DNA of 64,000 nucleotides from Streptomyces sp. NBC_00775 (GTDB lineage: Bacteria; Actinomycetota; Actinomycetes; Streptomycetales; Streptomycetaceae), in the NCBI RefSeq assembly GCF_036347135.1, contig NZ_CP108938.1, positions 1-64,000 of the forward strand, given 5' to 3'. The position numbers and the translations under genes were made by a program. Positions 22,720 to 49,000 of the stretch are shown here, one piece after another. How positions within the stretch are numbered: position 1 is the first letter of the stretch; each line of letters begins with the position of its first letter. The notes beneath the pieces are model-generated. The model made no database searches. It saw only the letters and a list, made by a program, of their open reading frames with translations, and had not been told where the DNA came from.

Positions 22720-22737
22720 ATGTCCTGGGGTATCGGT

Positions 22738-23960: not shown

Positions 23961-23973
23961 GTCGGATGGACGG

Positions 23974-30930: not shown

Positions 30931-30959
30931 CTTGCTCCAGGACCAAGAACGGGTGGGGC

Positions 30960-33068
30960 ATGACGGACAACGCATCGATCAATGTCGGCAGTCTCCTCAA
31001 CGGAGATGAACCGATCGATGACGCCAGCCAGGACTTGCTGCAGCGGACAGACCTGGCTGATGCGTTCGCGGCGGAAATCCGTCGAACGTCCGCGAAGCAC
31101 GGCGCAGTTGTAGCTCTGACGGGGAAGTGGGGTTCGGGCAAGACGTCGCTGGCGAATCTCACCTGCAGCGCTCTGGACACGGTCAACGACGTGCAAGTCG
31201 TCAAGTTCAACCCCTGGTTCTTCTCCGGCACCGACCAGCTCATACGGTTCTTCTTCGATGAACTTGCCGCGCAGCTGCGGGACGGACGCCGTCTGAAGGA
31301 CAAACTCAAGAGCGCGGGCCGCACCGTCGCTGAACGGCTGGGCAAGTACTCGGCCGCCCTGTCGCCGCTGAAATTCGTCCCCGGGGCCAGCGCCGTCCTG
31401 GACGGCGCTGGCGCTGTCGCCACGGGGACGTCGAAGCTCCTTGGTGAGGAGCAGGGAACCGTCCATGAACAACGAGCGCAGCTGACTGAACTCCTGGGCG
31501 CGCTGCCGGGGCGGATTGTGGTGTTCATCGATGACATTGACCGGCTGTCGCAGCAGGAGATCCGCGACCTCTTCCGTCTGGTGCGTCTGACCGGCTCGTT
31601 TCCAAATATCGTCTACGTCTTGTGCTTCGACCGCGAAGTGGTGGAGGCGGCATTGACGGATGAGGCGGTCAGGGGGGCCACGTACCTCGAGAAGATCGTG
31701 AAGATGTCGATGGAGGTGCCGCCGCTGCCCTCGCAGGCACTCTCACCGGTCATCGCCAAAGGACTGACCGAGGCGCTCGACGGGATCGAGTCCGGACCGT
31801 TCCACGCGGCGCGGTGGCCGGACGTACTCGTACAGGTGATTCTCCCAATGTTCTCCACCATCCGGGATGTGAAGCGGTACCTGGCATCGGTGCCACTGAC
31901 CGTGCGAAGCCTGGGTCTGGAGGTGAATCTGGTCGACGTTCTGGCGCTTGAGGCCCTTCGCGTGCGCTACCCCGCAGCGCACGCGATGCTGCATACCGCC
32001 ACGGATTTGCTGACGCCAGCCAAGACGATGTACCGACCCGGAACGGACCGGCCAACGCGTGAGAAAGCGTTCGTGGAAGAGTTCACCGGCCTCTTGAACG
32101 GCCACGCCCAGCCGGTCATCCGCCTGTTGTTCCCCGCCGCCGACAGGATTTTCGGCGGCCAGAATTACGGTTCTGACTGGATCCCGACCTGGGAACGGGA
32201 CCGGCGGGTCGCCTGCAGCACGGTGCTGGACTTCTATCTCCATCGCCAGCTGCCGGCCGGACGGGCACCCGCTGCATTCACCGACCAGGTCGTGGCCTGC
32301 ATCGGCAACGAAAGCATGCTCGACGAGGCATTGGGGCAGGTACCGGACGCCCTGCTGGACGACACGCTCAAGCGTCTGGTGCCCCATTGTCGCGACGTAC
32401 CTGAGGAAACGGTGCTGCCGACGGCCGCGGCTCTGGTGCGGCAGCTGCCGCGGATCCGGCTGGGCTCCTCGGGCATGTACTCCCTCGGTGGTGAATGGGC
32501 GGTGCTGAGCCCGGTGAGCGTTCTGCTGCGCAACCTCAGCAGCGACGTGGCCGACCACACCGTCCGCAGCCTCTTCCACGGCATCCCGAGCCTGTACGGG
32601 AAGGTCCTTCTGCTCGACATCGCTGCGGGCCGTCCAGACAAGCAGGGGTTGATCCCGGAGGAATCCGCCCGGTTGCTGAAGCGGGAACTTCTTTCCCAGC
32701 TCCACGCGGCCCGTCCCGAGAACCTTGCCGACGAGCGGATGCTGCTGCGGACGGTCCTTGTGGCAACAGCCGACACAGACGGCTCTCCCGTCCTTGAGCC
32801 GGTCTTCGATGCCCGCGTGGTCGCGCGCCTGCTGGAAAGCGGAGTGGCGCCGGTGCACAGCCAGACGATGGGTAGTGTGGCCGTGCGGACCGAGCAGCGG
32901 CTCGTGTGGGACTCCCTGGTGAGTGTCTATGGCGGGGAGGTGTATCTGGCCGAAGCCGTCGCGTTGTTGCACCAGTCCCTGCAGGAGGGGACGGTCGAGC
33001 TGAACGAGGACCTTGCGGCCGCTCTGGCTCTGTACGAGAAGTACGCGACAGGCTGGCGCCCGGAGTGA
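30960..33068 (+). CDS. KAP-family P-loop NTPase
   Basis: Encodes 702 residues from the ATG at 30960; an upstream in-frame extension crosses the IS relic and is unlikely. Walker A is LTGKWGSGKTSLANL (about 54-64). The KAP-typical VVKFNPWFFSGTDQLI follows at about 80, then a long helical insertion with small hydrophobic stretches (SAALSPLKFVPGASAVLDGA) between Walker A and B, and Walker B IVVFIDDIDRLSQQE (about 184). FPNIVYVLCFDREVVEAAL and YLEKIVKMSMEVPPLP are hallmark KAP segments. KAP NTPases include phage-exclusion protein PifA and many defence-island genes. It follows the methylase-HEPN gene on the same strand, so the two may form one system. No nuclease domain is visible in this protein. 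Confidence 0.8.
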   Translation: MTDNASINVGSLLNGDEPIDDASQDLLQRTDLADAFAAEIRRTSAKHGAVVALTGKWGSGKTSLANLTCSALDTVNDVQVVKFNPWFFSGTDQLIRFFFDELAAQLRDGRRLKDKLKSAGRTVAERLGKYSAALSPLKFVPGASAVLDGAGAVATGTSKLLGEEQGTVHEQRAQLTELLGALPGRIVVFIDDIDRLSQQEIRDLFRLVRLTGSFPNIVYVLCFDREVVEAALTDEAVRGATYLEKIVKMSMEVPPLPSQALSPVIAKGLTEALDGIESGPFHAARWPDVLVQVILPMFSTIRDVKRYLASVPLTVRSLGLEVNLVDVLALEALRVRYPAAHAMLHTATDLLTPAKTMYRPGTDRPTREKAFVEEFTGLLNGHAQPVIRLLFPAADRIFGGQNYGSDWIPTWERDRRVACSTVLDFYLHRQLPAGRAPAAFTDQVVACIGNESMLDEALGQVPDALLDDTLKRLVPHCRDVPEETVLPTAAALVRQLPRIRLGSSGMYSLGGEWAVLSPVSVLLRNLSSDVADHTVRSLFHGIPSLYGKVLLLDIAAGRPDKQGLIPEESARLLKRELLSQLHAARPENLADERMLLRTVLVATADTDGSPVLEPVFDARVVARLLESGVAPVHSQTMGSVAVRTEQRLVWDSLVSVYGGEVYLAEAVALLHQSLQEGTVELNEDLAAALALYEKYATGWRPE

Positions 33069-33881: not shown

Positions 33882-34754
33882 TCAGTCAGTGTGGCGTTGG
33901 GTGGGGTCGAGGCGGCTGAGGACGGCGCGCACTAGGTTCCGGCTGTAGGCAGGGGCAGGGAACGGTGCGGCCGCGTCGTGTGGCGTGGGCTGGTGTGGCG
34001 GATCTGCGGTGTGCCCCTTCGTGTCGGGGCCGCCGTGCTCTTCCCAGAGCAGGTAGGTGATTTTGGCCCACTGGCGGAAGTTGCCGTGGCAGGCGGCGTC
34101 GTCGATCCACAGCAGTTCGTCGGTGGGTACGTCCGCCCAGAGCGGGTGGTACTGGGGAATGACGGTGAGGACTTCTGCGGGGGTGAGGGGCTTGTAGCGC
34201 TGCCAGATGAGGATGCGGGAGTCAAGGGCCGGCCGGTTCTTGATTTTCTGGTAGCAGGTTTCGGCTCCGACCAGGACGACGGCGAGGCGGGTGTCCTCGT
34301 CGTCCCAGAGTTCGCGGATGAATTCGAAGGTCCGGGTGTCCAGCCACTGTGCTTCGTCGACGACCAGGACGCGTGAGGTGTCGGACAGTGCTTCTTTGAG
34401 CATGGCTTCGCAGCGGGTGCTGTTGAGGGGGGCCTCGCCGGGCAGGTCGAGCTTTTTGTACAGGGCGGCGCGCAGGGCCTGGATTTTGGCGGAGCCGACT
34501 TTGATGCGGAGCGTGGTGTGGGGGGCGAGGTCGTCGAGGTGGCTGTTGACGGCGAAGGTCTTGCCCAGGCCGACGCCGCCGTGGATGCACATGATGGCGC
34601 CCTTGCCTGCGTCGGCGTTGAGGGTGGTGACGAGGTTGGCGTAGGTCTCTGCGCTGGCGTCGGTCAGCATGGCGCGGGCGCCGGGCAGGCCCATGTAGTG
34701 GTAGTTGGGGCCGGTGGCCAACTGGCCTTCGGGCGTGGTGGTCGGGTGGGTCAC
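33882..34754 (-). CDS. TnsC/TniB-like AAA+ ATPase (transposition regulator)
   Basis: Encodes 290 residues from a GTG that overlaps the transposase stop (GTGA, 34751-34754). Walker A is CIHGGVGLGKTFAV (about 57-70), Walker B SRVLVVDEAQWLDTRTFEFI (about 127-146), with a sensor-1-like VVLVGAET. This is the compact TniB/TnsC/MuB-type architecture, which binds DNA and recruits and activates the partner transposase. Size fits TniB (~300). An upstream frame extension is antisense noise. It is the last gene of a minus-strand run that starts with cas3. In Tn7-like and CRISPR-associated transposons this protein is the link between target selector and transposase. No TniQ homologue is next to it. Confidence 0.8.
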   Translation of the reverse strand: MTHPTTTPEGQLATGPNYHYMGLPGARAMLTDASAETYANLVTTLNADAGKGAIMCIHGGVGLGKTFAVNSHLDDLAPHTTLRIKVGSAKIQALRAALYKKLDLPGEAPLNSTRCEAMLKEALSDTSRVLVVDEAQWLDTRTFEFIRELWDDEDTRLAVVLVGAETCYQKIKNRPALDSRILIWQRYKPLTPAEVLTVIPQYHPLWADVPTDELLWIDDAACHGNFRQWAKITYLLWEEHGGPDTKGHTADPPHQPTPHDAAAPFPAPAYSRNLVRAVLSRLDPTQRHTD

Positions 34755-36337
34755 TCGGTGTCCTGGGGCTTGGGGTCGGGCAGGGGTTTGGTCCAGCGGG
34801 TGGAGGAGGGTGTGGGCCGGTTGAGGAGGTCGGGCCGGGCCTCGATGTGCAGGTCTGCTTCCGGTGTCTGCAACTGACGTAGCTGTGCGGCTGCTTGGCT
34901 GGCGGTGAGCCGGTTGAGGGGCTCGGGTGTGGCGGCGACGCTGGTGGCGGCGTAGCGGGGTTTGGCGTTCTTGCGGGCGCGGCGGGCTTTGGCGGCGTAG
35001 CGGTCGGCTTCGCGCTGGCGGGCGTTGCGCAGTGCGCGGGCTTGGCGGGGGCTCATCTCGTCGCTGCGGAAGGCGGGGCCGCGGTAGGTGAGGGTGTCGG
35101 CGTCGTAGAGCTCGACGCGGTGGTAGTGGTGGGGTTCGTGGCGCAGGCGGACCATCTCGCCTGCGCTGCCGTGGCCGTGCATCCATTCGCCGACGTAGTA
35201 GGCGCTGTTCCAGCGGACGCCCTTGCTGGTGATTTTCAGGGGTGGCCCGGCGTCGTTGAGGGTGTAGGTGTGCAGGTCGCCGGGGTCGAGGGTGTCGATG
35301 GGGGTGAGGTCGGCGTGCCAGGCCTGGGCGGGGGTGCGCCGGTGGAGGCGGGCGATGGTGTGGTCGTTGTTCCACCAGTCCACCCAGTCGAGGACGACGG
35401 TGACGAAGGTTTCGTAGTCGAGGAGTTCGTTAAGGGCCCACAGGGGCTGTCCGCGGCGGTCGCGGCGGCTTCGGGGGGTGTGGGCGTAGCCGGGCAGGCC
35501 CTTGAACAGCATGTGCTTGGCGGCGCCGTTGATGGCTTCGACGGTGCCTTTGAGGTGGGGGCTGTAGGGCGGCAGGACGATCAGTTCGGTGCCGAACTTC
35601 TGGAAGGCCTCGGCTACGCACTTGCCCAGGAAGTCACGGCCGCGGTCGACTCTCACCTTGCGGGGGATGCCGCCGAAGGGCCGGTGGTGATCGGTGCAGA
35701 GGATGGCGTCGCGGGCGGCGGCCAGGATGGCGTCCTGGCTGGGCTGGTGGGGGGTGATGGCCAGGCCGCAGATGACGGCGGTGGCGTGGTCGATGAACCA
35801 GGTGATCCACGGTTTGCTGCGGTGTCCGTCGACGTTGACGAAGACGCTGGCTTCGACGTGGTCGGTCTCCCAGACGTCGTTGCGGTTGCCGTGCGGGCGT
35901 AGGGCGTGGACGTCGTGTCGGCGGCGGCCTGCTTCGCCGTTCTTGAGGGCGGCGCGCTGCCCGGCGCTGAGTTCGCGGTTGACGGCGCGGTAGAAGGTGG
36001 CCTGGGAGGCCCGGGGCGGGGTGCCGAGGTGGCCGTCGGCGACGAGTGCGAGGTAGGCGCTCGCCACGTTGCCGTGCCATTGGGCCAGGGCTTCGTGCAT
36101 GGCCGGGGTGAGGGTGAAGTGGCGACGGCCTTGGGGGGTGTAGGTGCCGTTGTGGGCGCCGGCGTTGTCCATCCAGCGTCGCACGGTGCGCCAGTGGACG
36201 GTGAAGGCGTCGGCGATGGTGCGTACGTCGTGGTGGGTCAGGCGTTCGGTGTCGCGCAGACGCAGCAGGCGGCGGACCGCGGCGGCGCGGAGGGAGGTGG
36301 TGTCGTAGGGGCCGTCGGGTGAGGGCGTGGCGGGCAC
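34751..36337 (-). CDS. TnsB/TniA-like DDE (rve) transposase
   Basis: Encodes 528 residues from a GTG. N-terminal helix-turn-helix segments (RDTERLTHHDVRTIADAFTV, then HWRTVRRWMDNAG) are followed by an rve integrase core: D159 in VWETDHVEA, D231 in VRVDRGRDFLG, E267 in SPHLKGTVEAING. The D-35-E spacing is standard. A C-terminal beta-barrel-like domain (LKITSKGVRWNSAYYVG) and basic tail follow, as in MuA/TniA/TnsB. It begins 40 bases after the cas6e stop on the same strand and overlaps the ATPase gene, so it is positioned like a gene of the Cascade operon, where cas1-cas2 are normally found. No TnsA-like endonuclease is adjacent, so transposition would be replicative unless provided elsewhere. 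Confidence 0.85.
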   Translation of the reverse strand: MPATPSPDGPYDTTSLRAAAVRRLLRLRDTERLTHHDVRTIADAFTVHWRTVRRWMDNAGAHNGTYTPQGRRHFTLTPAMHEALAQWHGNVASAYLALVADGHLGTPPRASQATFYRAVNRELSAGQRAALKNGEAGRRRHDVHALRPHGNRNDVWETDHVEASVFVNVDGHRSKPWITWFIDHATAVICGLAITPHQPSQDAILAAARDAILCTDHHRPFGGIPRKVRVDRGRDFLGKCVAEAFQKFGTELIVLPPYSPHLKGTVEAINGAAKHMLFKGLPGYAHTPRSRRDRRGQPLWALNELLDYETFVTVVLDWVDWWNNDHTIARLHRRTPAQAWHADLTPIDTLDPGDLHTYTLNDAGPPLKITSKGVRWNSAYYVGEWMHGHGSAGEMVRLRHEPHHYHRVELYDADTLTYRGPAFRSDEMSPRQARALRNARQREADRYAAKARRARKNAKPRYAATSVAATPEPLNRLTASQAAAQLRQLQTPEADLHIEARPDLLNRPTPSSTRWTKPLPDPKPQDTE

Positions 36338-36377
36338 GGGGTCCGGGATCTTCCTTGGGGTGGTGGGTGGGGGTGGG

Positions 36378-37088
36378 TCAGGCGGGGGCGAGGGAGAGCA
36401 GGCCGGCGCCGTAGGGCTTGCCGCGGCCGATGCCGGTGAGTACGGCGTGGCGCAGTTGGTCGGGGTCGGTGATGGTGGCGAGGCCGTCGAAGCGGGTCAG
36501 TGCGTGCCGGAAGACGTCTGGTTGCTTGTCGCCGCCGTGCTGTCTGGTGACGGGGTGGCGGGATCGGCGTACAGGGGTGAGGGCGGTGCTGTGCAGGGCG
36601 AGTCCTGCGTGGGTGGCTTTGCGCTTCCACCAGGTGAGGGCGTCGTCGCCGTGCAGGGGTACGTCTGTGTGGCGGGGTTTGGTCTCGGTGTCGAAGAAGG
36701 GGTCGCTGTCGGTGCATTGGCGGCGGGCGCTGGCGTTGGCGGTGATGCGGTAGCGCACGCGTCGGCCGGGGGTGAGGGCCGTCAGCATGGGGGTGAGGTC
36801 ACGGGTTTCGGCGCTGCCGTAGGTGGCGGGCAGGCGGGTGAGGTCGGGCGGCAGCTGGGACTGGACGAGCAGGGTGGGCGGGGTGTGGCGGGTGGCGTGT
36901 TCGAGGCGGAAGAGCAGTCCGGCCTGCTGGCGGGGGTGTTCGCCCAGTCCTTCGGGGGCCAGCAGCATGATCGTCTTGTGCAGGCTGCCCGGGTGGGCCA
37001 GGTCGCGGCGGACGTCGGGGTTGCGGAGGTTGAGGTGGATGCGGATCAGGGTTGTTGTGCTGGTGTCGGGTTCGGTCTGAAGGCTCAT
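36378..37088 (-). CDS. cas6e: Cas6e (Cse3) crRNA endoribonuclease
   Basis: Encodes 236 residues; its ATG overlaps the cas5e stop (ATGA). It starts IRIHLNLRNPDVRRDLAHPG with LHKTIMLLAPEGLG, the typical Cse3 opening, whose His (LH) is the likely catalytic residue. RVRYRITANASARRQ is the second conserved strand. The C-terminus GIGRGKPYGAGLLSLAPA is the glycine-rich RAMP loop of Cas6e. It processes the palindromic type I-E repeats found at 45-50 kb. In usual I-E loci cas1 and cas2 follow; here a transposase gene follows after 40 bases. Confidence 0.9.
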   Translation of the reverse strand: MSLQTEPDTSTTTLIRIHLNLRNPDVRRDLAHPGSLHKTIMLLAPEGLGEHPRQQAGLLFRLEHATRHTPPTLLVQSQLPPDLTRLPATYGSAETRDLTPMLTALTPGRRVRYRITANASARRQCTDSDPFFDTETKPRHTDVPLHGDDALTWWKRKATHAGLALHSTALTPVRRSRHPVTRQHGGDKQPDVFRHALTRFDGLATITDPDQLRHAVLTGIGRGKPYGAGLLSLAPA

Positions 37089-37876
37089 CGGGGGGTGTCC
37101 TGCTGGATGTAGGCGGCCAGGGCGTTGATCGTGGGCTGGGCGGCGTACAGGGTGGCGGGCAGCTGTTCGGTGGTGCGCCAGACCCGGCGGGTGTGGTGGA
37201 AGCGCCGGGTGGGGGTGAAGTCGACGGGTACGTCGGCGAGTTCGCGGTGCACGTTGGCGGCAGGGGTGTGCACAGGCGGGTGCTCCCAGACGAAGTCGGC
37301 CGGCACGGTGTCCTGTTCGGGGCGGGGTGGGGCGGGAAGGCTGAGCGGGGCCCGGGTCAGGAGTTCGTGGACGGGGTCGGGATGCGGGCCGCGCAGGACG
37401 AGGGGTTCGTCGGGGGCACAGGCGCGGCGCCCCAGGTAGGGGGCGAAGGCGGGCTGCTCCAGGCGGCTGGTGATCTTTTCCAGGAGCGGGTCGGGTCCTT
37501 GGACGGCGACGGTGAAGACGGCGTCGGCCAGGTAGACGCGGTGGCTGATGAAGGTGGATGCCTTCTGGCTGCGGTAGTTGCCGCTGCTGGTAGACAGGCC
37601 CTGTTTGTGGGGGCGGCCTCCGCCGGCGGTGTGGTAATCGGTGTGGCGGTGGCCGGGTCGGTCGATGCGGACGGTGAAGCGCAGGTCGGCGTAGGGGACA
37701 GTCCCGGTGGCCGGGTCGGGTGTCAGGGCCTGTTCGCGAGGGCGGCCGTCGGCGGCGGCGAACAGGCCGATGAGGGCGGAGCGGGTGGGGAAGGCGACGG
37801 TGTCGCGGTAGCGGAAGGCGGCGTGTTCTCCGAAGGCCATGAGCGGGGCGGCCAGGCGCAGCAGGATGCCGTTCAT
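37085..37876 (-). CDS. cas5e: Cas5e (CasD) subunit of type I-E Cascade
   Basis: Encodes 263 residues from an ATG overlapping the cas7e stop by four bases; the long open frame beyond it is antisense noise. The N-terminus ILLRLAAPLMAFGEHAAFRY, then TVAFPTRSALIGLFAAADGR, is the Cas5e pattern (strand, then P-T-x-S-x-x-x-G-L). YRSQKASTFISHRVYLADAV and PYLGRRACAPDEPL are typical of CasD. The protein holds the crRNA 5' handle and contacts Cas8e. Confidence 0.9.
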   Translation of the reverse strand: MNGILLRLAAPLMAFGEHAAFRYRDTVAFPTRSALIGLFAAADGRPREQALTPDPATGTVPYADLRFTVRIDRPGHRHTDYHTAGGGRPHKQGLSTSSGNYRSQKASTFISHRVYLADAVFTVAVQGPDPLLEKITSRLEQPAFAPYLGRRACAPDEPLVLRGPHPDPVHELLTRAPLSLPAPPRPEQDTVPADFVWEHPPVHTPAANVHRELADVPVDFTPTRRFHHTRRVWRTTEQLPATLYAAQPTINALAAYIQQDTPR

Positions 37877-39075
37877 GCGGCCGACCGTGAGGGGGACGGC
37901 TGGGCGGCGGCTTTGGTGAGGGCGTCGGTCAGGTCCTGGAAGGAGGTGTGGGCGGTACCGATGTGGTCGACGGGGGTGTCTTGCAGGGTGGCGTAGCCAT
38001 GGGTGATGCGGCGGCGGTCGCCCAGTAGCCGGTTGAGGGCGTCGGCGTGCTGGGACAGTGCGTGGACGGCGGGCTGGGTGTGGCCGCCGCCGCGAGCGTG
38101 TTTGACGGGCTGTTCGAAGGCGGCGGCGTAGGAGACCGGGCGGCGGTCGCGGATGGCGTAGTGGACCAGGTGGGGCAGGGTGTGCGGGGCGGTGGAGGTC
38201 TTCTTCGCCTGGGGCAGGGCTTCGATGAACGCCTCGGTGAACAGGGCCAGTAGGCACAGGGCCTGGTCGTCGTCGCCGTCCAGATTGCGGGTGAGTTCGG
38301 TGAGGTTGACGGTGGCGTAGCGGTAGAGGATGCCAGTGGTGAAGAAGCCGGTCTGCAGGTGCGCGCTGCCGGTGTCGTGCGGGGCGGCCCAGTCCTCGAC
38401 GGCGGTGAAGTAGTCGGGCTGCGGGTCGCTTTGATGGACGGTGAAGGCGTGGGCCATCTGCACGGCGCCGTCCACGTGGGCGCCGGGGAGCTCGGCGAGC
38501 ATGCGGCCGAACAGGTTGATGGTGGCCGTCCGTCGCTTGATGAGGGATGCGACCGTGCGGGTGGGCAGGACGGCGGGCACGGTGCTGTCCTTGGGCTTTT
38601 TGCGGCCGCCCTTGGACTCGGCGGCAGCGGCGACCGCTTGGGTGCGGGCCTCTTCCAGCTGCGGTCGGTGTTCCTGGCACAGGTCGACCATGTCGGAGAG
38701 GGTGTCGCGCGGCAGGTAGAGGAGGGCGGAGGTGATGCCGCCTTGGTTTTCTTCGGTCTTCAGGCCCTCTCTGCTGGCTGAGCGGGCGATCTGGGCGCCG
38801 GCGAAGGCGGCCAGCTCCGCCGGCCAGCCGGTCTCGCTCAGGGCGTCGGCCACGCGCAGGGGAAGCATGCGGGTGCGGGCGGCGTGTTCGTCGAGTTCCT
38901 CCTCCAGCATGAGGCGGATGGCCCGCTTCCAGGCCTGCGAGGAGACCATCCCTCTGACGGCGCCGCCCAGCAGCAGTGTCTTGGGCTCGTCGTCCTCCCC
39001 TCGGTTGAGCAGCGAGGCGGGTACCGGGTGCAGGGCGTGCAGGTCGATGTAGCGGGCGGGTGCGTAGGGGGTCAT
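37873..39075 (-). CDS. cas7e: Cas7e (Cse4/CasC) backbone subunit
   Basis: Encodes 400 residues. The opening YIDLHALHPVPASLLNRGED followed by GGAVRGMVSSQAWKRAIRLM is diagnostic of Cse4 (S-Q-x-x-K-R-A-x-R). QTGFFTTGILYRYATVNL and YAAAFEQPVKH appear in the expected order. Six copies normally coat the crRNA. The start ATG is placed one base after the cse2 stop. Length is close to other actinobacterial Cse4 proteins. No truncation or missing core motif was noted. Confidence 0.92.
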   Translation of the reverse strand: MTPYAPARYIDLHALHPVPASLLNRGEDDEPKTLLLGGAVRGMVSSQAWKRAIRLMLEEELDEHAARTRMLPLRVADALSETGWPAELAAFAGAQIARSASREGLKTEENQGGITSALLYLPRDTLSDMVDLCQEHRPQLEEARTQAVAAAAESKGGRKKPKDSTVPAVLPTRTVASLIKRRTATINLFGRMLAELPGAHVDGAVQMAHAFTVHQSDPQPDYFTAVEDWAAPHDTGSAHLQTGFFTTGILYRYATVNLTELTRNLDGDDDQALCLLALFTEAFIEALPQAKKTSTAPHTLPHLVHYAIRDRRPVSYAAAFEQPVKHARGGGHTQPAVHALSQHADALNRLLGDRRRITHGYATLQDTPVDHIGTAHTSFQDLTDALTKAAAQPSPSRSAA

Positions 39076-39076
39076 G

Positions 39077-39787
39077 TCAGTCTTCCTGGGACGCGAGGCG
39101 GTCGAGGGTCTGGAAGTAGGAATCGCGCCAGCGGGCGGCGGTGTGCAACCGGTCGTCGTCCCACCAGGCCAGGTCTTCCAGCAGGACGGCGAAGTCGAGG
39201 CGGGCGGCATGACGGCTGCTCAGGTGGGCGGCCAGGGTCCACAGCCGGGGGTGCAGCAGCGGGGTGGACAGCCGGGTGAGGGTTTTGACGCGGTCGTCCA
39301 TGCGGGGTTGTTTGAAGCCGTGGCGGCCCACGGCGAGGGCCAGAGTGGTACCGAGATTCGGGCGGGCCCGCCAGTGCGGTCCGGGTGTCTTCTGCCCTGG
39401 TGCGGGATCGTCTGCCGCCGTGGCGCCCGGGGCGGGCGCCCGGAGCGGTTCCTGCCGCTGGGAGGCGTTCTCGATGTCCGGCAGAAGCGGATCGTCGGCT
39501 GGGCCGTCGGGGGCGGGGTGAGCGGACTCCGGGGTGTAGGGGCCGTCTTCGTGGGCGAGGTGGCGCTGCATGGCGATGAGGCTGGCGACGGTGTAGTGCG
39601 CGCGGCGGGCACCGAAGCGGGCGGTCCGGGCGGAGAGGTATTTCTGCATCCGCTCGCATTCTTCGACGGGGCGTCCCCGGCCGGAGGCGAGGTCGGCTCG
39701 GACGCCGTTGAGGGAGCACAGCTCGATGACCTCGGCGACGAAGTCGTCGTAGTGGGCGCGGCGTTGCGCGGTGGTGAGCGTGGGCAA
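39077..39787 (-). CDS. cse2: Cse2 (Cas11e, CasB) small subunit
   Basis: Encodes 236 residues from a TTG with GAGGAA about 10 bases upstream; no better start exists before the helical N-terminus PTLTTAQRRAHYDDFVAEVI. The protein is all-alpha, with ARRAHYTVASLIAMQRHLAH in the middle and a C-terminal TRLSTPLLHPRLWTLAAHLS, ending RLASQED. Cse2 forms the Cascade belly that holds the non-target strand. A Pro/Ala-rich linker (about 90-135) makes it longer than E. coli CasB (160), as is common in Streptomyces. Confidence 0.85.
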   Translation of the reverse strand: MPTLTTAQRRAHYDDFVAEVIELCSLNGVRADLASGRGRPVEECERMQKYLSARTARFGARRAHYTVASLIAMQRHLAHEDGPYTPESAHPAPDGPADDPLLPDIENASQRQEPLRAPAPGATAADDPAPGQKTPGPHWRARPNLGTTLALAVGRHGFKQPRMDDRVKTLTRLSTPLLHPRLWTLAAHLSSRHAARLDFAVLLEDLAWWDDDRLHTAARWRDSYFQTLDRLASQED

Positions 39788-39843
39788 AGGGGAGTTCCTC
39801 GGTGCGGAGGGCGTCTGGTGAAGGCGGTGGCCGGCAGGGGGTG

Positions 39844-41397
39844 TCAGGAGGTGCGGCGGGGGGTGGGGTGCGGCGGGCGGCGCAGTTCGGTTACCGCTGC
39901 GGCGACCGCGCGGGCGGTGAGGAAGTGCTGGGTGATCGCCGGGCGGGTGACGTCTTGCAGCACGGCGACGGCCTCGGCGGCGAACGCTGCCCGTGCGTTG
40001 TGGTCGGGGTGCTCGAGCAGGCGCCAGAAGACGGTCTCGGCGCGGGGCCAGTACGCGGCGCGGGCTTGCTTCGTCCATGCAGGCAGCCGTTTGGGGGGTC
40101 TGGAGCTGCGGTGGGTTGCGGTGGAGGGTGTGGTGACGGTGCGCCAGGCCTGGCGGGAGACCTCGTCCAGGCGTGTGCCGATGTCTTCGGCCGCGATCCG
40201 GCATTCGGCGATCCTCTCCGCGGTGTCCGGGTCGTGTTCCTGTGTCCAGGGCCAGATCGGCGGGGTCAGGGCCGTGTACCAGGTGCGGTTGTTGGTCCGG
40301 CCTTCCTGGTCAAAGCCGTGGACGCGGACACGGAGGCGGGCGCGCAGGTCGGGGGGCAGGTCGTTGAGAGTGGTGAAGGCGTCGGGGCGTTGGACGGTGG
40401 AGGTTTCGTCGCCGGCGAGCAGGAGGGCGTCCAGGTCGCGCCACAGGGCGCGGTCGGCGTCCGCGCGGCGGGGCTTGTGGCGTTCATTGACGGGTTTGTT
40501 CGTGTCGAGGTGGTGGATGAGGAACGGGTCTGTGGCGAGGAGTTTGGTCTCGGTCGCCCAGGTCACGTAGGCGTCGGTGACCTGTCGGCCGTCTGCGGAG
40601 GGGATCAGGAGGAGGGCGTGGCAGGAGCGGCCGGTCAGCAGCCGGCCCGGCCAGGTCACTGCGGGCGGCGGTGCCAGTGGGTCCGGCAGTTCGGGTTCTT
40701 CCCACGGGCACCGGTCTGTTGCGTCGGGCCAGTGGTCGGCGGGTTTGGGCAGGCCCGCGAGGAGCGTTTCGTACAGGGTGCGGCCCAGGGGGTGGAAGGA
40801 GAGGGTGGAGCGTAAGGGGCCGGCCGTTGCGTTGCCGAGGCGCCGGTCTCCGATGGCGCGCACGGAGCATGTGCCGGAAGCGCCGTAGTAGTGGTGGATG
40901 AGCAGGTGCCACAGTGCCTGTGCGCTGGGGACGGGCTGCGGGTCGGTGTCGGTGTGTGGGCTCAGCCAGGCCAGGTTGTTGCCCTCTGGGCGGCCGAAGA
41001 CCAGTTTGTTGACTCCGGCCCGGTCTTTGCACTGCACGGCCAGCCTGGGGTCTTGCAGGAAGGGCCGTGCGGGATCGAACAGGTCCCAGGTGTGCTTCTC
41101 GAAGTAGCCGTGGATCGCGTCGGCGTCGAAGCCGTCGGGTTCCTTCAGCAGCGCGCGGCGGCGGGCGGCCCACTCCCCCACGCCCATCTCCGGATCGTCC
41201 AGCCCCGTCGTGCGGGCCACGATCGCGATCAGCAGGCGCAGCACCGCGGAGGCTGCCGGTGGCAGGGGCAGTGCCAGATCCTCGATTTCGTGGGCGCGCA
41301 GCAGCAGCTCGCGCCATCCCAGGTATTCCTGGTGCCCGTCGAGGAACAGGGCGGGAATACAGGGCTCTTTGTCCGTTGGGTATAACGGCGCAGGCAC
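39844..41397 (-). CDS. cas8e: Cas8e (Cse1/CasA) large subunit
   Basis: Encodes 517 residues from a GTG with GGAG 8-11 bases upstream; the frame is open to a TTG at 41493. The N-terminal motif EPCIPALFLDGHQEYLGW corresponds to the usual EPWIPV...DG of Cse1, with Cys in place of Trp. RELLLRAHEIEDLALPLPPA, then FDPARPFLQDPRL and ALWHLLIHHYYGASGTCS follow in the normal order, and WPWTQEHD lies in the C-terminal half. Cas8e recognises PAM and recruits Cas3. It lies 56 bases before cse2. About 500 bases separate it from cas3, unusually far. Confidence 0.85.
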   Translation of the reverse strand: MPAPLYPTDKEPCIPALFLDGHQEYLGWRELLLRAHEIEDLALPLPPAASAVLRLLIAIVARTTGLDDPEMGVGEWAARRRALLKEPDGFDADAIHGYFEKHTWDLFDPARPFLQDPRLAVQCKDRAGVNKLVFGRPEGNNLAWLSPHTDTDPQPVPSAQALWHLLIHHYYGASGTCSVRAIGDRRLGNATAGPLRSTLSFHPLGRTLYETLLAGLPKPADHWPDATDRCPWEEPELPDPLAPPPAVTWPGRLLTGRSCHALLLIPSADGRQVTDAYVTWATETKLLATDPFLIHHLDTNKPVNERHKPRRADADRALWRDLDALLLAGDETSTVQRPDAFTTLNDLPPDLRARLRVRVHGFDQEGRTNNRTWYTALTPPIWPWTQEHDPDTAERIAECRIAAEDIGTRLDEVSRQAWRTVTTPSTATHRSSRPPKRLPAWTKQARAAYWPRAETVFWRLLEHPDHNARAAFAAEAVAVLQDVTRPAITQHFLTARAVAAAVTELRRPPHPTPRRTS

Positions 41398-41892
41398 AGA
41401 GGCGCTCCAAATGCCGGGCAGAAGAAATGGCGGGAACGGTGAGGGAGAGGGTTTCCCTGTCAGTACTGGGGCTGGTCCGTCGTGTGACGGCAACCAGGCA
41501 GCAGCAGAAGGCCGCCGGTCCGGTAAGGATGCAGGCGACGGTCAAGTCGCGCCCAGGAGACCGGAGTTGCCGCCGGTAGAGCACCAGGGGGTGCGGTGCT
41601 TACCAACGCGGCAGCGCAGGAGGGAATGCGTGACGACGGGTTCAAACGTGCGCCCCGTTGCCACATTTCCATATTAGCCAGCGCCGACAGTTCTCCGAAC
41701 CACACCGTTCACCTTTTAATTACCGGCGGGTCCACCTCTTTTGAGTCGTCATCACCGGCTCAAGAGCGCAACTTGCCTGGCTCCGTGCGCACTTGACCGC
41801 ACGTGCTTTCGCAGAACGGGGCGGACGGGGTGGGACGTCCAGGTCAGCTGTCTGGCAGAGACGACACATTCGCACGGCCGGCGACGAGGCAT
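41398..41892. other. Gap between cas3 and cas8e
   Basis: No recognisable gene. An AT-rich patch (CCATATTAGCC, then CACCTTTTAATTACCGG, about 41670-41730) is unusual here and could be a promoter for cas8e and the following genes, which would let Cascade and the transposase genes be expressed without cas3. Confidence 0.4.
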
Positions 41893-42700
41893 TCATTCCC
41901 TGCCGTGAACCAGTCCCAGCACGGGGTCGAGGCGCAGAGTGTGGCGGCCGAAGCGCACGGCCTCGTGGGGGTGGGCGGCGGTGTGCGGCAGCAGCACCAG
42001 GTCTGCGAGCAGGGCGTGCTTCTGCCAGGCCGTGGGGGCGTGATGTTCGCGGCGCAGGTCGGCGACCCAGGCGGCGGGAACGGGCAGGGTGTGCCGCAGG
42101 ATGGTGCGGATCTGCGCGAGGGTCGGCTCCCGGTCCAGGGAGAGCAGCTGGGCGCCGTCCGCATCGAGGGCGAAGCGGCCGGCCGGGGTGCGGTAGAGGG
42201 GCAGGAGGCGGCGGGGCATGATGCCCAGGCGGGTGGCGGCGTCGCGGGCGTTAAGGCGCTGTCGGTGCAGGTCGGCCAGCGCGAGCGTGTGTCGTTGGGT
42301 GGGGATGAGGTGCAGGGCGCTGCGGTGTTCCTCGACGCGGCGTCGGGTCTGATAGGCGCGGTAGCGGTGTTCGAGGGCGGGTGCGGTGCGGGCGAGGTCT
42401 TCGGCGTCGCCATGCACGGTTTCGACCAGGTGGTGGACGTCGTCGGGCAGGTTGAGCGTGAGGGTGCCCTCGGGCTGGCGGGCCAGGTAGGCGGCGGTGG
42501 CGTGGGGCAGGAAGGGAGGGTCCAGGGTGCGCCAGGCGGCCGGGAGGAGCGTGTCGCCCTCATGGCCGGTGGGCTGCAGGACGATCAGCCGGGCGTGCGT
42601 GCGCCGGCGCAGCCAGGCGGGTCTGCGGCTGGACGCGGGGCCCCACAGGTGCTCGAAGCGCCAGAGGCGGCCCAGGCGTTGCAGGAGGGTGTGCAGGGGG
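41893..42700 (-). pseudogene. cas3: Out-of-frame C-terminal part of cas3e
   Basis: After the frameshift at the G5/C5 run (42696-42700) the correct Cas3 sequence continues in another frame: LHTLLQRLGRLWRFEHLWGP (helicase motif VI, Q-R-x-G-R), then ARLIVLQPTGHEGDTLLP, ...VHHLVETVHGDAEDLARTAP and a C-terminal domain ending LDPVLGLVHGRE at 41893. It belongs to the gene at 42585-44774 and would not be translated in register unless frameshifting occurs. Confidence 0.8.
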
Positions 42701-44774
42701 CGAGGTCGCTGACCATGACGTCGACGTCGACGTCGAGACTCATGTCGAGAAGGCTGGTGGTCACGACGACGAGGCGGGCGGGGCGTTCGCCGGTGCGTCC
42801 GAGGCGGCTGCGGATATGGCGGGTAAGGGTCTCTCGCTGGTGGCCGGGCAGGCGGGCGTGCAGCAGCACCAGCTGGTCGTTAGGTCCGCCCTGCCAGTCC
42901 AGCATGTCGTGGAGGTGCTGGTAGGTGCGCTGTCCGTCGGCCACGGTCGCGCACACCACGACGGCGCAGCCGCCGTTCTCAACGACGGGCGCGATCTCGG
43001 CGGTGATGCGCTCGAGTCGGCTCTCGCGGGCGGGCGCATTGCCGGGGTCGGTCTGCGTGTCGTGGCGTACCGGGTAGAGACGGATCTCAGCAGTGCGGCG
43101 AAAGCGCCGGGCATGCTCGTCGGCCGCCTGCGGGTCGATGCGGGTGAGTGAGGCGTCGGCGGCCGCGGCGAACAGCCAGCCCGGGTAGGCGGGCGTCCAG
43201 TCCCGGTCTGCGAGCACGGTGCGGGAGTGGCCTGCTCCGGCGAGGTAGCTGCGCACCAGCTCGTTGCTGGTGCGGGCCGGGAGGGTGGCGGACAGCAGGA
43301 CGACGGGGCAGCCCAGTGCCCCCAGCCAGTTCAGCAGGCGGCCCAGCATCTGCTGCATGAACGGGGTCAGGGCGTGCACCTCGTCCACGATGACGGTCCG
43401 CCCGGACAAAGCCAGCTGGCGCAGCATGCTGAAGCGGACTGGGAGCGCGGCCATGAGGGCCTGGTCGACGGTGGCGACGGTGAACTGGGCCAGCAGCGCG
43501 CGGTCCCAGCCGCGCAGCCAGCCGTCCGGCACGGTCACCCGCTTCTCGGGCCGCTGCGCCGTCCCCTCCCCGTCGCCTTCTCCACCGCCGAGATCGTCGG
43601 GCCAGAACTCGTCGGTGGTGGACGGCTCGTGGGCGGCGAGGCGGTGGTCGGTGTAGGCGGTGTTGAGATAGTCGTAGCTGTGCACCAGGGAGACCGGGGC
43701 ATGCTCGGGGCGGTGCGCGGCCACATACGCCTCAAGCACGTCGTAGGCGGCGTCCGTGGTGGCGGTCGTCGGCAGCAGCCAGACGATGCCAGCCGTATCG
43801 CCCCCGGCGTTGAAGATACGGGCGGCTTCCAGAGCGGTGATGGTCTTGCCGCCACCGGTGGCATCGGTGACCACCACGATGCCCGGCCCCTTCTCCCCCA
43901 CGACGGCGGTGAGCTGCCGAATCAGGGAGGCCTGCAGGTCGTTCGGTTGCGCGACACCGCGGTGGGCCTGGGCGAACGAGGTGTCGGGCAGGGTGATGCG
44001 GGCCAGACCCGACTGGTCGAGCACGGCCGCGGCATCCTTGACGGCCTGGGCGTAGTGCTCGCCGGCACCGAAGGCGGGCGCCTGCGCCTTGGGCAGCCAG
44101 TAGTGGCGCTGGCTGGCCAGCCGGTCCGCGACAACTCCGACACCGGTGATCAGTACCGCGGCCGGTACCGAGACCCTGGCGGGCACCGCGGTGGCACCGG
44201 TCAGGTGCCGCAGGAGGAAAAAGTAGCGGCGCCGCAGGTCCTGCCAGAGCGGGCCGCCCAACGCGCCATTGACCCGCGCCGCCTGGGCCGCACCGTCGAG
44301 GTCGAGCTGAAGGAACCGGCCGTGATGGCCGCCCAGCATCTGCGCCACCCGCACCCCAGGGCTGTCCGAGGTGCCGACCGGGTAACCGGCCTCCGCCAGG
44401 AGCTGCAGCACACCGTGCATGGAAGCCCGCTCATGCCGCATGCGCCGCCAGCCAGCAGTGTCCGCGCGCAGCGCCTCGCTCACCCGCGCCCACGGATGCT
44501 CCTCTTGCTCCTGGAAAGCAGAGAGCTTGCCCAGATCATGCAGGCCAGCGATGAACATCACCAGGCAGCGGGCCTCCGCCACCGCCACCCCAAGCCCTGC
44601 GGAAATCAACTGCCGCTGCCCGCACGTCAAGAACCGGTCCCACACCTCACCAGCGATCGCCGCGGTATCCAGCAGGTGAAACAACAGCGGATACACCGCC
44701 AGCAGACCCCGGTCGAACTTGCCCCACGGCGTCAGGTCAATCCCACCGAACCGGGCGTCCTCCCGTACCCCCAC
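42585..44774 (-). CDS. cas3: Cas3e HD nuclease-helicase, interrupted by a single-base frameshift
   Basis: The start is the GTG at 44774, with GGAGGG just upstream; a GTG at 44789 is possible. The HD domain has PLLFHLLDTAA, GLHDLGKLSAF and LGGHHGRF. The helicase has Walker A TDATGGGKTITAL, box II VIVDEVHALTPF, LSATLPART, and motif V TTSLLDMSLDVDVDVMVSD. Then, at a C5 run on the coding strand (42696-42700), one base is missing and the frame turns into PCTPSCNAWAASG before stopping near 42585. All catalytic residues up to motif V are intact, so the lesion is recent or an assembly error. If real, motif VI and the C-terminal domain are lost and target degradation should fail, as in CRISPR-guided transposons that lack Cas3. 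Confidence 0.85.
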   Translation of the reverse strand: MGVREDARFGGIDLTPWGKFDRGLLAVYPLLFHLLDTAAIAGEVWDRFLTCGQRQLISAGLGVAVAEARCLVMFIAGLHDLGKLSAFQEQEEHPWARVSEALRADTAGWRRMRHERASMHGVLQLLAEAGYPVGTSDSPGVRVAQMLGGHHGRFLQLDLDGAAQAARVNGALGGPLWQDLRRRYFFLLRHLTGATAVPARVSVPAAVLITGVGVVADRLASQRHYWLPKAQAPAFGAGEHYAQAVKDAAAVLDQSGLARITLPDTSFAQAHRGVAQPNDLQASLIRQLTAVVGEKGPGIVVVTDATGGGKTITALEAARIFNAGGDTAGIVWLLPTTATTDAAYDVLEAYVAAHRPEHAPVSLVHSYDYLNTAYTDHRLAAHEPSTTDEFWPDDLGGGEGDGEGTAQRPEKRVTVPDGWLRGWDRALLAQFTVATVDQALMAALPVRFSMLRQLALSGRTVIVDEVHALTPFMQQMLGRLLNWLGALGCPVVLLSATLPARTSNELVRSYLAGAGHSRTVLADRDWTPAYPGWLFAAAADASLTRIDPQAADEHARRFRRTAEIRLYPVRHDTQTDPGNAPARESRLERITAEIAPVVENGGCAVVVCATVADGQRTYQHLHDMLDWQGGPNDQLVLLHARLPGHQRETLTRHIRSRLGRTGERPARLVVVTTSLLDMSLDVDVDVMVSDLAPCTPSCNAWAASGASSTCGAPRPAADPPGCAGARTPG

Positions 44775-45140
44775 AATCACCCTCCGCACTCCAACTACCG
44801 CCTAGAACCGTTGCGTTAAGACATCCTGCCCTGTTGTGATCACCACCCCGGCCACCGGCCGCCCGGGCGGGCTCTTCGACCACGGTGCCGGAGTCTCTCC
44901 GGGGCGAGACGTCCCCACTCCGTGAGGATCTATTACTGCTGGTCATGACGCCATCGTGCATGTGCCCACCGTTCCCCACGTACGAGCGGTTGCCCCATAG
45001 GAGGCCCGCGCGCGGCGGCATGGCATGCGAACTCATAGGCGAACGCCACAAGACTTTCGACCGAAACCTCGTTCTCGCACTGCAACCGCTCGGGGCAAAG
45101 CACTTTCACAGGCGCGCTACCCCGGTATCATCGGCCCGGG
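44775..45140. promoter_or_regulatory. Divergent region between cas3e and CRISPR array 3a
   Basis: No gene is seen. This gap must hold the cas operon promoter on the minus strand. An AT-richer patch near 44925-44950 (GAGGATCTATTACTGCTGGT) may contribute. The array leader proper begins at 45141. Confidence 0.45.
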
Positions 45141-45190
45141 TAAAGCGAGCAACTCGTCCCGTAGATCTTTGAACCTGCAGGCGGGCGAGG
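45141..45190 (+). promoter_or_regulatory. Leader of array 3a
   Basis: TAAAG at 45141 lies 50 bases before the first repeat, with ATCTTTGAAC and CAGGCGGG following. The same elements at nearly the same distance precede arrays 3b and 4, so this is a diverged copy of the same leader. Confidence 0.6.
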
Positions 45191-45340
45191 GCGCTCCCCA
45201 CACGCGTGGGGGTCAGCCGTACAGCAGGGCGGCGAGCTGAGCGATGCGCGGCCTTCCCTACGCCAGTGGGGGTCTGTCCACGAAGGCCCAGGCCAGCAGC
45301 ACGCTCTTCAGGTTCTCCCCACGCACGTGGGAGACAGTCC
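45191..45340 (+). CRISPR. CRISPR mini-array 3a (type I-E), three degenerate repeats
   Basis: Three 29-nt repeats start at 45191, 45251 and 45312 (60-61-bp period), all diverged from the CTTCCCCACACGCGTGGGGG core; the second and third have several changes within the palindromic stem. The array is followed by a fresh leader copy and array 3b, so it looks like an old array displaced by a tandem duplication of the leader-repeat unit. Confidence 0.85.
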
Positions 45341-45367: not shown

Positions 45368-45419
45368 TAAAGTAGGCAAAAATCGGCTGGCTGATCTTCA
45401 AACTCGCAGGTGAATGAGG
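45368..45419 (+). promoter_or_regulatory. Leader of array 3b
   Basis: TAAAGT at 45368 lies 52 bases before the first repeat, followed by GCAAAAAT, TCTTCAAA and CAGGTGA. It matches the leader of array 4 in order and spacing. Confidence 0.7.
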
Positions 45420-45877
45420 GGGTTCCCCACACGCGTGGGGGTCTTTTCGAGGCCGCCCGGCTCAACGGCCGGCACGATCTGGGTTCCCCACACGCGTGGG
45501 GGTCTTTCCCCGGCCATCTACGGCGTGAGGGCGGGTAACTGGGGTTCCCCACACGCGTGGGGGTCTTTCCACCAGACCCCTCCGTCCGTGTGGCCGCAGC
45601 GAGGGCTCCCCACACGCGTGGGGGGTCTGTCGACCCTGGCCGTCAACACCTGCCTGCGCGAGTTGCTCTCCCCACAGATGTGGGGGTCTTTCCGTGGCCT
45701 CGTCGACGAATCGGGAGTTGTCGTTAGTCTTCCCCACACGCGTGGGGGTTTTTCGTACGCCGGTCCCTACCGGCTGACCCTCACGCCGTCTTCCCCATAC
45801 GCGTGGGGGTCTATCGGTGAACTGGGCCCACCCAATCCAGCCCACCGCGTGTTCCCCGCACAGTTGGGGGCCTATCC
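45420..45877 (+). CRISPR. CRISPR array 3b (type I-E), eight repeats
   Basis: 29-nt repeats begin at 45420, 45481, 45542, 45603, 45665, 45727, 45788 and 45849 (61-62-bp period, 32-33-nt spacers), with core TTCCCCACACGCGTGGGGGT, a perfect stem typical for Cas6e. Repeats near the leader are uniform and the last ones (45665, 45849) are mutated, so the leader is at the left and transcription is on the plus strand, divergent from cas3. It ends about 125 bases before the STAND NTPase gene. Confidence 0.95.
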
Positions 45878-46002: not shown

Positions 46003-49000
46003 GTGGCGTTCGACGGTGGGCGGGTTGCTGCTCGCGGATTCCAGTACCAGTATCTGCGCACGGTGGAAGCGCTGCTGGCCAGTGTGCGGAACGGCGAAGC
46101 AGCTGGGTGCCGTATCGAGGGGCCTGGGAACGCGGTGTCGCTCCAGCATGTGGATTCGGTCGATTTCGATCTGGCCGACGCCGCTGGCCGCTCGTTGATG
46201 GCGGTACAGGTGAAGAGCGCCGGAGCGGGGCGGACTGTGAGGGCGCGAGAGGCGGTGACGGTGCTGGTGCATCTGGTCACCGGTTTCGAGGCCGAGCAGT
46301 ACCGGTTGATCACCTCGGCTGCGCCGGACGAAGGATGTCTGCGGCTGGCTGAGGTGTTGCGCCGTCATGGCGGTGATGTTCCTCTGCTCAAAGCGGACTT
46401 GCGGGAGCTTCTGGTTCGGGCGCCGACCGCGTGGGGTATCTGTCAGGCTTTGTCCGAGGAGCACTGGGAACGTCTGGGGCGTGCGGGGATCGAGTTCGAT
46501 GGCCGCAGCGACGGGCAGTTGCGTGAGGATCTCCACAATGCGCTGCGCACCGAACGGGAGCATGCCGGGCAGGGGTTGTCGCACAGGGCCGGGGGGCTGG
46601 TGCTGGGCCACTTGGTGGCCGAGGTCATGCGCCGGGCGGCCGACCCTGACCTGGCGCACTGGGACGTGCGGGAGTTTCGCCGGTCGGTGCTGGTCAGCGA
46701 CGAGGAACTGACCTCAGCTGTCGGCCGGCACGAGCTCGGGATCGTCTACGGACAGATGCCGCCCCTTCCTGAGGTTGAGCGCGCGGATCTCGTCGATGGA
46801 ATCGGAGAGATCCTCTCTTCCGGTGGGGACGGCGCCGTGGGCATCCGAACGTGTGTCATCACCGGGCTGTCGGGACTGGGCAAGTCGAGCCTGGCCGCGG
46901 CACACATCGCTGATCAGGCCTTCCGCTATGACGCGGTGTTCTGGGTAGACGCCGAGAGCGAGGAGGCCTTGGTCGCGTCGTTTGCCCGCGTGCTGGCACA
47001 TCTGACCGGCAGTGAGGAACCGGCCGAGGTGCGGGATCCGCGGCTGGTGCGCGAGCGGGTGCATGCCGAGTTGCAGTCCCTGCCGGGGCCGTGGCTAATG
47101 GTGTTCGACGACGCCAGTGCGCCCGTTGCCCGTGCCTGGATACCACGTAGCGGGCGGGGCAGGATCATTGTCACCACTCTGGGCGGCCACTGGCACGGTG
47201 TGCAAGGGCGCATCGATCTGAGCCCGATGAGCAGCGAGGAAGCACTCCGCTTGGTGCAGCTGCGGCTGGACTTGAGTGAGGGCCAGGTTGAGCAGTACGC
47301 GTCGTCGCTGTCCGGGCTGGCCCAGGTCCTGGAGTGCTGGCCGCTGGCGATCGAGGTGGCCTGCGGCTATCTGGTCACCTGCGGTATCGGCCTGGACCGG
47401 CTTCCCGCCTACACGAATACGCTGATCCACCGGGCCGCGGACGATGAGCGGTTGGTGCCTGCCGGGTATCCGCGGACGCTGGCGGCGGCCGTCGCGCTGA
47501 GCACCGAGCGTCTGATCAGCAGTGCCCGCTCCCGTGGCTTGCTACAGCCAACCCTGGCCACGGTGGCCGCACTGTGCTGGCTCGCCCCGCGCCGGGCACC
47601 GGTGCATCTAGCGTTGGCGAGCACGTTCGTCGGCCCCACAGACCTGCCGCCGGCTCCCGGATGGGTGGTGTTCGACGAGGCGCAGGTCCCGGTGCGCGAG
47701 GTCATCCGCGAACTGACCGATGTCTCCCTTGTCCGGTACGACGAGCCGCTACCAGCCCGCAAGGAGGCATTTCCCGGCAGTGAGGACACCGTGTCGATGA
47801 ACGCGGTGCTGCAGGACATCCTGGCCCGACACCTGGGGCTGTCGCAGTCAGACGTAGCTGCGGGTCTGGCGCACGTGGCCTGCCACACCGACCGCTGGCT
47901 GCGCGGGGCCTTGCTCTCCGGGCAGGCCGAACGGACCTGGGAACTGGCCCAGCACGCCACCGCGCTGGTCGGGCACATCCGCTCAACACACACGGCCGAC
48001 GGGTACACGGCCCTGCTCATGGGCAATCTGGCAGCGTTTCACCATGCTCACGGCCAGTACGACGCCGCCCACGCCCTGCTGGAGCTTGAGCTGGAATGGC
48101 TGGCACGAGCTGGCGACCCGGACGAGGGGATGGCCGCCCAGACGCACACCCTGCTCGCGCACCTCACCCAGCTGCGCAAGCAGGCCGACGCCGGCCACCG
48201 CATTTCTGCCCATTTGCTGCCCGTGCTGTCCTACCTCCGCCGGCTCGACGGGCCGCCGCCCGAGCCCGTCGCCCACCTCGCAGCCGAGGCATCGCGGATC
48301 CTGCAGAGGCACCTGCGCGACGAGCCGGACCCTGCGCTCGCGCAGCTGCTGGAGGACTTCCGTGTCCTGGCAGATGCACTGCCCCCCACCGAGTCAACGC
48401 AGGCGACGAAAGACCTCCTCGCCATCCAGGACCTGTTGGGACACAGCAAAGGCGAACGCGCCGAACACGCCGCAGCAACAGCCTTGACCAGGAGCACCGA
48501 TCCATGGTCGCGGGCCACGGCCGACCTCAAACGCCTCCTCATCGAGGCGCTCGTCCTACAGGACAAGTGGGAGCAGGCCGATGCCGCGCTCAGCGACTTC
48601 CTGCCCTATGCCGGCCCCCGCACACTGTACGGATTCGCCCTGCACCACCTGGTGCACAACGTCGGCTGCCACTGCGCCTGGACGTGGGTGACCCAAGGAG
48701 AACAGCGTGCAGTGGAACTGCTGGGACGGCTGCTGAAGGAAACCAGCATCGCCGAGAATCCGGCGCTCGAGACGGCCACCGATGAGGCCCGGTTCATCCT
48801 GCTGCAGGTGGTGCACGACAGTTGGCGGGCCATGAACGGAAGCTCCCAGGACGAAGGGTTCCTGGAGCAGATGAGCCGGCTCAACGACAAGACGTTCACC
48901 GAACCCTACGACCCGGACAACGTGTGGGAGCGGATCTACTCCGGACTGATGCCGCGGCTGGCGGCCGTGATGGGTGAGACGGTGCACCGCCACTACCAGG

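Follow-up and report, generated by a model that had tools for sequence, protein, structure and literature searches.

Type I-E Cascade, Cas3, TnsB and TnsC as the probable guided insertion module of a telomeric transposon in Streptomyces sp. NBC_00775

The first 64,000 bases of the 11.1-Mb contig NZ_CP108938.1 of Streptomyces sp. NBC_00775 (bases 1-64000, hereafter the window) contain a type I-E operon of the clustered regularly interspaced short palindromic repeats (CRISPR) system that runs into genes related to the transposition genes tnsB and tnsC. As judged by Pfam and NCBIfam profiles, the order on the minus strand is cas3, cas8e, cse2, cas7e, cas5e, cas6e, tnsB and tnsC, in agreement with an initial annotation made from the sequence alone. 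The main frame of cas3 (42585-44789) comprises HD and helicase domains (Cas3_HD, 1.2e-35; Cas3-like_C_2, 1.1e-21) and is followed by cas8e (cse1; 39844-41493; CRISPR_Cse1, 1.9e-57), cse2 (39077-39760, approximate start, within a longer frame; CRISPR_Cse2, 3.7e-09), cas7e (37873-39078, approximate start; Cas_CT1975, 2.3e-93), cas5e (37085-37885, approximate start; casD_Cas5e, 2.3e-47) and cas6e (36378-37088; CRISPR_assoc, 1.7e-44). The tnsB-like gene (34751-36337) codes for a DDE transposase with a Mu-transpos_C match above the Pfam cut-off and an rve match (1.4e-05) below it, and the tnsC-like gene (33882-34772, approximate start) for an ATPase (AAA_22, 2.9e-17). The coordinates also agree with the 40 bases described earlier between the end of cas6e (36378) and the opening of the tnsB frame (36337) and with the overlap of the tnsB stop (34751), which lies within the tnsC frame, and the proposed triad of the transposase, D159, D231 and E267, is invariant in an alignment of seven TnsB sequences.

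The operon forms part of a terminal inverted repeat. In an end-to-end alignment, the left and right ends of the contig agree over 50,611 columns with a single difference, a one-base gap within cas3, and from position 50611 onwards the two arms diverge and run into different genes. The repeated unit, termed the telomeric element here, reaches from the contig end to a transposon end (1-50610) and has its inverted copy at the opposite contig end; since terminal repeats are present, the chromosome is probably linear. The repeats stop at 50610, 402 bp past the last CRISPR repeat, and the transposon end itself (50450-50610, plus strand) contains two pairs of repeats, 16-17 bp long and oppositely oriented, that are read as putative TnsB sites; it recurs ahead of unrelated flanks. 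The earlier statement that the window holds no recognisable transposon ends thus does not stand, the end lying about 5.8 kb past the last coordinate which that annotation had covered. Outside the element, the left-arm flank (50611-51139, plus strand) is the 3' portion of a LysM-BTAD gene that the element interrupts, and it aligns with the intact gene in seven plasmid loci. Telomeric transposons are defined by one specific transposon end, with the telomere as the other boundary, and this boundary feature is found in the window element.

The one-base difference between the two copies of cas3 bears on the report that the gene is interrupted, which is true of the left copy and not of the right one. 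On the left, cas3 is split into two frames, its C-terminal part lying in a different frame (41893-42417, minus strand; 75% identity to the C-terminus of the relatives' Cas3 in genome G091), whereas on the right it forms a 969-codon open frame, and the interruption is either a change private to one copy or a slip in its sequencing. As to the reported absence of cas1 and cas2, neither was named among the 38 open reading frames of the window scanned with Pfam, and a type I-E Cas1 model had no match in the whole genome of the strain while it matched in 8 of 14 control genomes; Cas2 was searched in the window only. Nor did Pfam find TniQ among the 38 frames, as had been noted before. A search of the whole genome for TniQ was also empty, but the 14 control genomes were equally silent, so that a genome-wide absence of TniQ cannot be claimed.

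Three leader-array units lie on the plus strand between cas3 and the transposon end, namely array 1a with its leader (45151-45340; leader family D4), which includes spacers W45194 and W45254, array 1b (45380-45877) with W45606 and W45791, and array 2 (49834-50208) with W50122. The direction of the CRISPR RNA (crRNA) agrees between the leaders and the protospacer-adjacent motifs (PAMs). The 14 spacers of the window are 32-34 nt long, and five of them match the loci examined here, within which alone targets were sought. W45194 and W45791 both match, at constant positions, one LysM-BTAD gene, which on large Streptomyces plasmids is the last in a Tad-pilus-like operon. W45194 does so with 6-8 mismatches in all seven plasmid loci and W45791 with 5-8 mismatches in six of them and 11 in the remaining one, each protospacer being preceded by 5'-GAA; of 4760 shuffled spacers, six came to at most 8 mismatches. 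W45254 (6-9 mismatches) and W50122 (4-7 mismatches) match genes of the plasmid conjugation cluster in seven of seven loci (shuffled spacers: 0 of 2380 at 8 mismatches or fewer, six at 9), and for W45606 the matching gene, present on two plasmids (L167 and L168), is the tnsC of a rival telomeric transposon. As the first base of W45791 is mismatched in all seven loci, the PAM may be AAN, which is the form given for S. avermitilis in the part of PMC12231136 that was accessible.

With the reading direction of the target gene taken as plus, most protospacers found are on the minus strand (L085-L098, L164-L190), those of W45606 and its relatives being the exception. In some relatives, a lone repeat-spacer-repeat unit is located past tnsC (L100:12753, L102:6110, L107:12753, L050:5280, with a related spacer in L053); none was found in the window. 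The spacer of this unit matches an XRE-type regulator gene with one mismatch in L043, L099, L101 and L112 and with three in L103, preceded by GAA or GAG, and does not match the regulator type of its own carriers (82-84% like window positions 23521-24237). It looks as if the unit might target rival elements.

Some spacers of different elements are related to each other. Ten spacer families are common to different elements, with 20 similar pairs (pairs within one element included) among 127 spacers and none in 20 shuffles, and at least three changes in the 21-base repeat core were found in 34 of 48 repeats around shared spacers, compared with 63 of 156 around unshared ones. That guide families are shared by differently inserted elements indicates that the guides precede the insertions. 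Since relatives of W45194 and W45791 occur in other elements, one of them (G254) with a different flank, it is also unlikely that the spacers were acquired from the DNA beside an insertion.

These observations bear on a proposal in print, attributed to Faure et al. (2019b) in the accessible part of PMC12231136, according to which TnsB and TnsC have replaced Cas1 and Cas2 and form an alternative module for spacer acquisition. In line with it, the locus lacks cas1 and no type I-E Cas1 was found in the genome, yet arrays are present. However, the transposon end, which the proposal denies, recurs before unrelated flanks, guide families are common to elements inserted elsewhere, and a module of this kind would be expected to produce spacers of variable length, in contrast to the uniform 32-34 nt in the window, even though some relatives have array units of 52-63 bp. 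Because an end exists and spacer length is uniform, this proposal is weakened and is considered improbable here.

The search for the same gene order in other genomes, which the initial annotation had suggested as a check, returned it many times. When 84,980 species genomes were scanned with a TnsB alignment, 45 loci were obtained. At least one cas gene adjoins tnsB in 25 of them, and the complete series of eight genes is kept in 20 of these 25, at TnsB identities as low as about 41% (L102 has cas genes but no cas6e match). In the other 20 of the 45, L103 among them, which is cut off by a contig edge, tnsB and tnsC occur without cas genes. A TnsB match of some kind is present in 82 of 199 genomes of the genus, and in 20 further genus loci fetched at such matches, cas genes precede tnsB in six (G097 covering only part of the operon owing to a contig edge) and are absent in 14; the two sets overlap in some contigs. 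In G091, cas genes precede tnsB in both copies, and in one copy tnsB spans two frames.

By these data, a Tn5053-like tnsB-tnsC pair that came to lie beside a decaying I-E operon by simple juxtaposition, an origin which had been left open before, is hardly credible. The signs then named for it were a wide occurrence of the pair without cas genes, with cas6e next to it in this window only, or transposon ends between cas6e and tnsB. Pairs without cas genes are indeed common (20 of 45 and 14 of 20 genus loci), but cas genes adjoin tnsB in 25 of 45 loci, so that the first sign tells in part for the guided reading; the second was seen nowhere in the loci examined. The broken left cas3 would also fit a decaying operon, but the gene is open in the right copy. 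It is the recurrence of the eight-gene order that rules out a separate Tn5053-like unit, and the element is a telomeric one, bounded by one end and the terminus, not a unit with two ends.

Searches for the terminus of the element were positive in 7 of 25 individually searched genomes (partially in G252), 8 of 392 genomes of the genus (weakly in G321, G330 and G360) and two plasmid records, the matches in G252, G321 and G360 covering the end only in part. The end query was cut at 50610, for which reason BLAST matches stopping there prove nothing, and differences between flanks were read from the sequences: all readable flanks differ save within two genomes, the G091 arms being alike and likewise the pair of G251 contigs. 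The end copies in G406, G144, G401, G330 and plasmid CP106748 adjoin unrelated flanks and come with 0-2 spacers in the sequence fetched; perhaps they are elements without CRISPR or remnants. In G257 (L182:7580-7620) and G264 (L178), which have different CRISPR repeats, the ends are apparently at most 3 bp apart beside a DUF2637 gene. G068 was rejected as a further source of the end, its terminal repeat continuing through all 60 kb compared.

At each junction, intact homologues of the interrupted gene were checked for nearby matches to the spacers of the same element, spacers shorter than 31 nt and array units outside 52-72 bp spacing being dropped, with the exception of one 77-bp unit of G091 that was added by hand and without which the G091 site rests on its other spacer. 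Seven junctions have both spacers and homologues and are therefore testable. Four of the seven have an own protospacer with an AA PAM within 400 bp: a tap gene in G251 (76 bp; 2-8 mismatches in four of eight homologues and 9 in a fifth), LysM-BTAD in G091 (78 bp; 4-7 mismatches in six of seven), LysM-BTAD at the left arm of the window element (120 bp; 4-8 mismatches in eight of eight, G091 among them), and a rival tnsB in G247, with the protospacer in the neighbouring tnsC (360-366 bp; 4-6 mismatches in three of three). If the start of the spacer is shifted one base later, these distances become 75, 77, 119 and 359-365. In all four, the junction is PAM-proximal and the protospacer is on the side lost to the telomere. 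Own spacers have no match nearby in the retained flanks. The chance that a random point of the locus is equally close on that side is 0.012, 0.004, 0.005 and 0.046, respectively, and shuffled spacers matched no junction in 300 runs. The insertions near protospacers of own spacers support guidance in these four testable cases, and the natural junctions indicate that insertion is guided and takes place on the PAM-proximal side, which was not expected.

Eleven further junctions or ends are outside this count. The end in G254 was found by eye, and among the matches listed in 150 genomes none reaches the first 200 bases of its flank. Those in G257 and G264, which differ in repeat type, were likewise identified by eye, at 19 and 16 bp from a motif common to both next to the DUF2637 gene; no plasmid matched, the sole match in 238 genomes is G161, with a contig as long as that of G264, and no intact site was found. 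G250 has no spacers and the G248 contig starts at the end; in G406, G144, G401 and G330 no spacers were found in the fetched stretch, AD2-2 has two, and NBC_01340 has six but no intact homologue spanning the junction.

Several observations weigh against guided insertion by a telomeric transposon. The right-arm junction of the window element, in a conjugation gene, has no own protospacer nearby (14 spacers, seven homologues), and neither have the junctions of G267 and G269 in telomere-adjacent helicase genes (five spacers and one spacer, respectively, and one homologue). The distances of 120 and 360-366 bp do not match those of 76-78 bp, and an AA PAM at 76-78 bp is absent for the left and right arms of the window element and for G247, so that the insertion rule is not uniform. 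Guide-target matches carry 2-9 mismatches, the protospacer of W50122 is preceded by CAG instead of AA, and each insertion is seen from one junction side only. Furthermore, telomeric transposons are also defined by carrying telomere-maintenance genes, and queries from one plasmid gave no match to tap or tpg within the element, a partial telomere-type helicase (7913-9223) being the sole telomere-type gene found in it.

The junctions without an own protospacer (three of seven) would also be explained if the I-E system were defence cargo only and TnsB and TnsC alone chose the sites, a common preference of both for the same targets then accounting for the nearness to protospacers. The aiming of spacers at conjugative plasmids and rival transposons, the retention of Cas3 and the many tnsB-tnsC pairs without cas genes are compatible with this. 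However, own spacers match beside four of seven junctions, as opposed to none of the 98-119 unshared spacers of other elements per junction at any of the seven, the side and the PAM orientation are the same in all four positives, and two of the distances are within 2 bp of each other, so that an exclusive role in defence appears unlikely, if somewhat less so than a role in spacer acquisition.

Taken together, the gene order, the transposon end, the terminal repeats, the guides with their targets and the insertions beside own protospacers make it probable that the locus is the module by which a telomeric transposon of variant I-E5 of the CRISPR-associated transposons (CASTs) is targeted and transposed, with crRNA-guided insertion on the PAM-proximal side. 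TnsB would cut and join the transposon end, with TnsC as its ATPase. Cascade, loaded with crRNAs from the arrays inside the element, would mark AA-PAM sites in conjugative linear plasmids, telomere-proximal genes and rival telomeric transposons and might recruit TnsC, with Cas3 or Cas8e possibly taking the role of TniQ; TnsC and TnsB would then insert the element PAM-proximal of the R-loop, on the side where Cas8e lies and towards which Cas3 moves. In the model for telomeric transposons, two transposon ends are obtained from joined termini, which might supply them here as well. Cas3 travels from the R-loop into PAM-proximal DNA, and insertions at 76-78 bp and farther on the same side would fit either a dock for TnsC on the Cas8e/Cas3 face or the loading of TnsC behind a moving Cas3; the fixed dock is favoured for the two equal distances and loading behind a moving Cas3 is kept for the other two. 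The fuller proposal, a Cas3-keeping CAST without TniQ in which Cascade-Cas3 loads TnsC for PAM-proximal insertion at about 76-78 bp or farther along the path of Cas3, and inherited guides steer the chromosome end into conjugative plasmids, telomere genes and rival telomeric transposons, is tentative and perhaps slightly less probable than its negation.

The element also carries other genes. A second CRISPR effector module (10709-17141, plus strand) comprises Cas6b, Cas8b-like, Cas7b, Cas5b and Cas3b of type I-B, with no adjoining Cas1, and is followed by defence-like cargo (17560-33068, plus strand) with a PD-T4-6-like kinase, a GajB-like UvrD-type helicase, a PifA-like KAP ATPase and an N6 DNA methylase over two frames (27731-30623). 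A cargo frame of 1233 codons between arrays 1 and 2 (46003-49704, plus strand) partially matches an FxSxx-COOH system TPR protein, below the cut-off. The right arm also holds partial tap- and tpg-like sequences (L031-L032), which lie inward of the element at a distance of 88-92 kb from that end of the contig.

To our knowledge, characterised CASTs use TniQ, are without Cas3 and insert PAM-distally. TnsC is loaded in CASTs via TniQ at the PAM-distal end, and I-F3 and other TniQ CASTs keep their guides in atypical repeats. Compared with these, the window element has Cascade, TnsB and TnsC in common, and guided insertion, which is known in CASTs, is proposed here; unlike them, Cas3 is kept, TniQ was not found and four junctions are PAM-proximal. 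Accordingly, the CRISPR-guided transposition suggested at the outset stands as the best reading, with four of seven junctions in its favour, though not in the form of the Tn7-type CASTs, from which the retained Cas3 and the insertion side differ. For I-F, the consulted part of PMC13228271 agrees on TniQ use and PAM-distal insertion. Telomeric tnsB-tnsC elements on Streptomyces plasmids (L167, L168 and L190) share with the window element 39% identity in TnsB and 43% in TnsC over most of the length, as measured on the L167 proteins, and have, unlike the window, no annotated cas gene within the stretches fetched.

With respect to I-E systems, the accessible sections of PMC11656645 list I-E among the captured subtypes and those of PMC10293859 do not mention it. 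According to PMC12231136, as far as its text was available, Faure et al. (2019b) described Streptomycetaceae I-E loci with tnsB and tnsC replacing cas1 and cas2, said to have no flanking terminal structures and proposed to act in adaptation; gene set and order are alike in the window, which differs from this account by the end at 50610. A CAST variety I-E5, without TniQ-TnsD, with an active HD in Cas3 and belonging to the telomeric transposons, is described in the part of PMC12669027 that could be consulted, citing Hsieh et al. (2025). It shares with the window the I-E effector and Cas3, here adjoining tnsB and tnsC, the transposase genes and the linear-chromosome end, TniQ-TnsD was not found among the 38 frames scanned, and no difference was established; the window locus shows the I-E5 features that were testable. 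The I-E5 type is therefore already published, and the window element is a further I-E5 telomeric CAST. What may be new is the PAM-proximal insertion side, on which no statement was found in a literature search that did not reach the primary I-E5 paper; it can be tested directly, given the transposon end, the guides and four natural insertions described above. If true, a defence effector would double as a targeting device in the competition between chromosome ends and plasmids, it would be explained how TniQ can be dispensed with, and, compared with the known CASTs, there would be a second way to couple Cascade with a transposase, on the opposite side.

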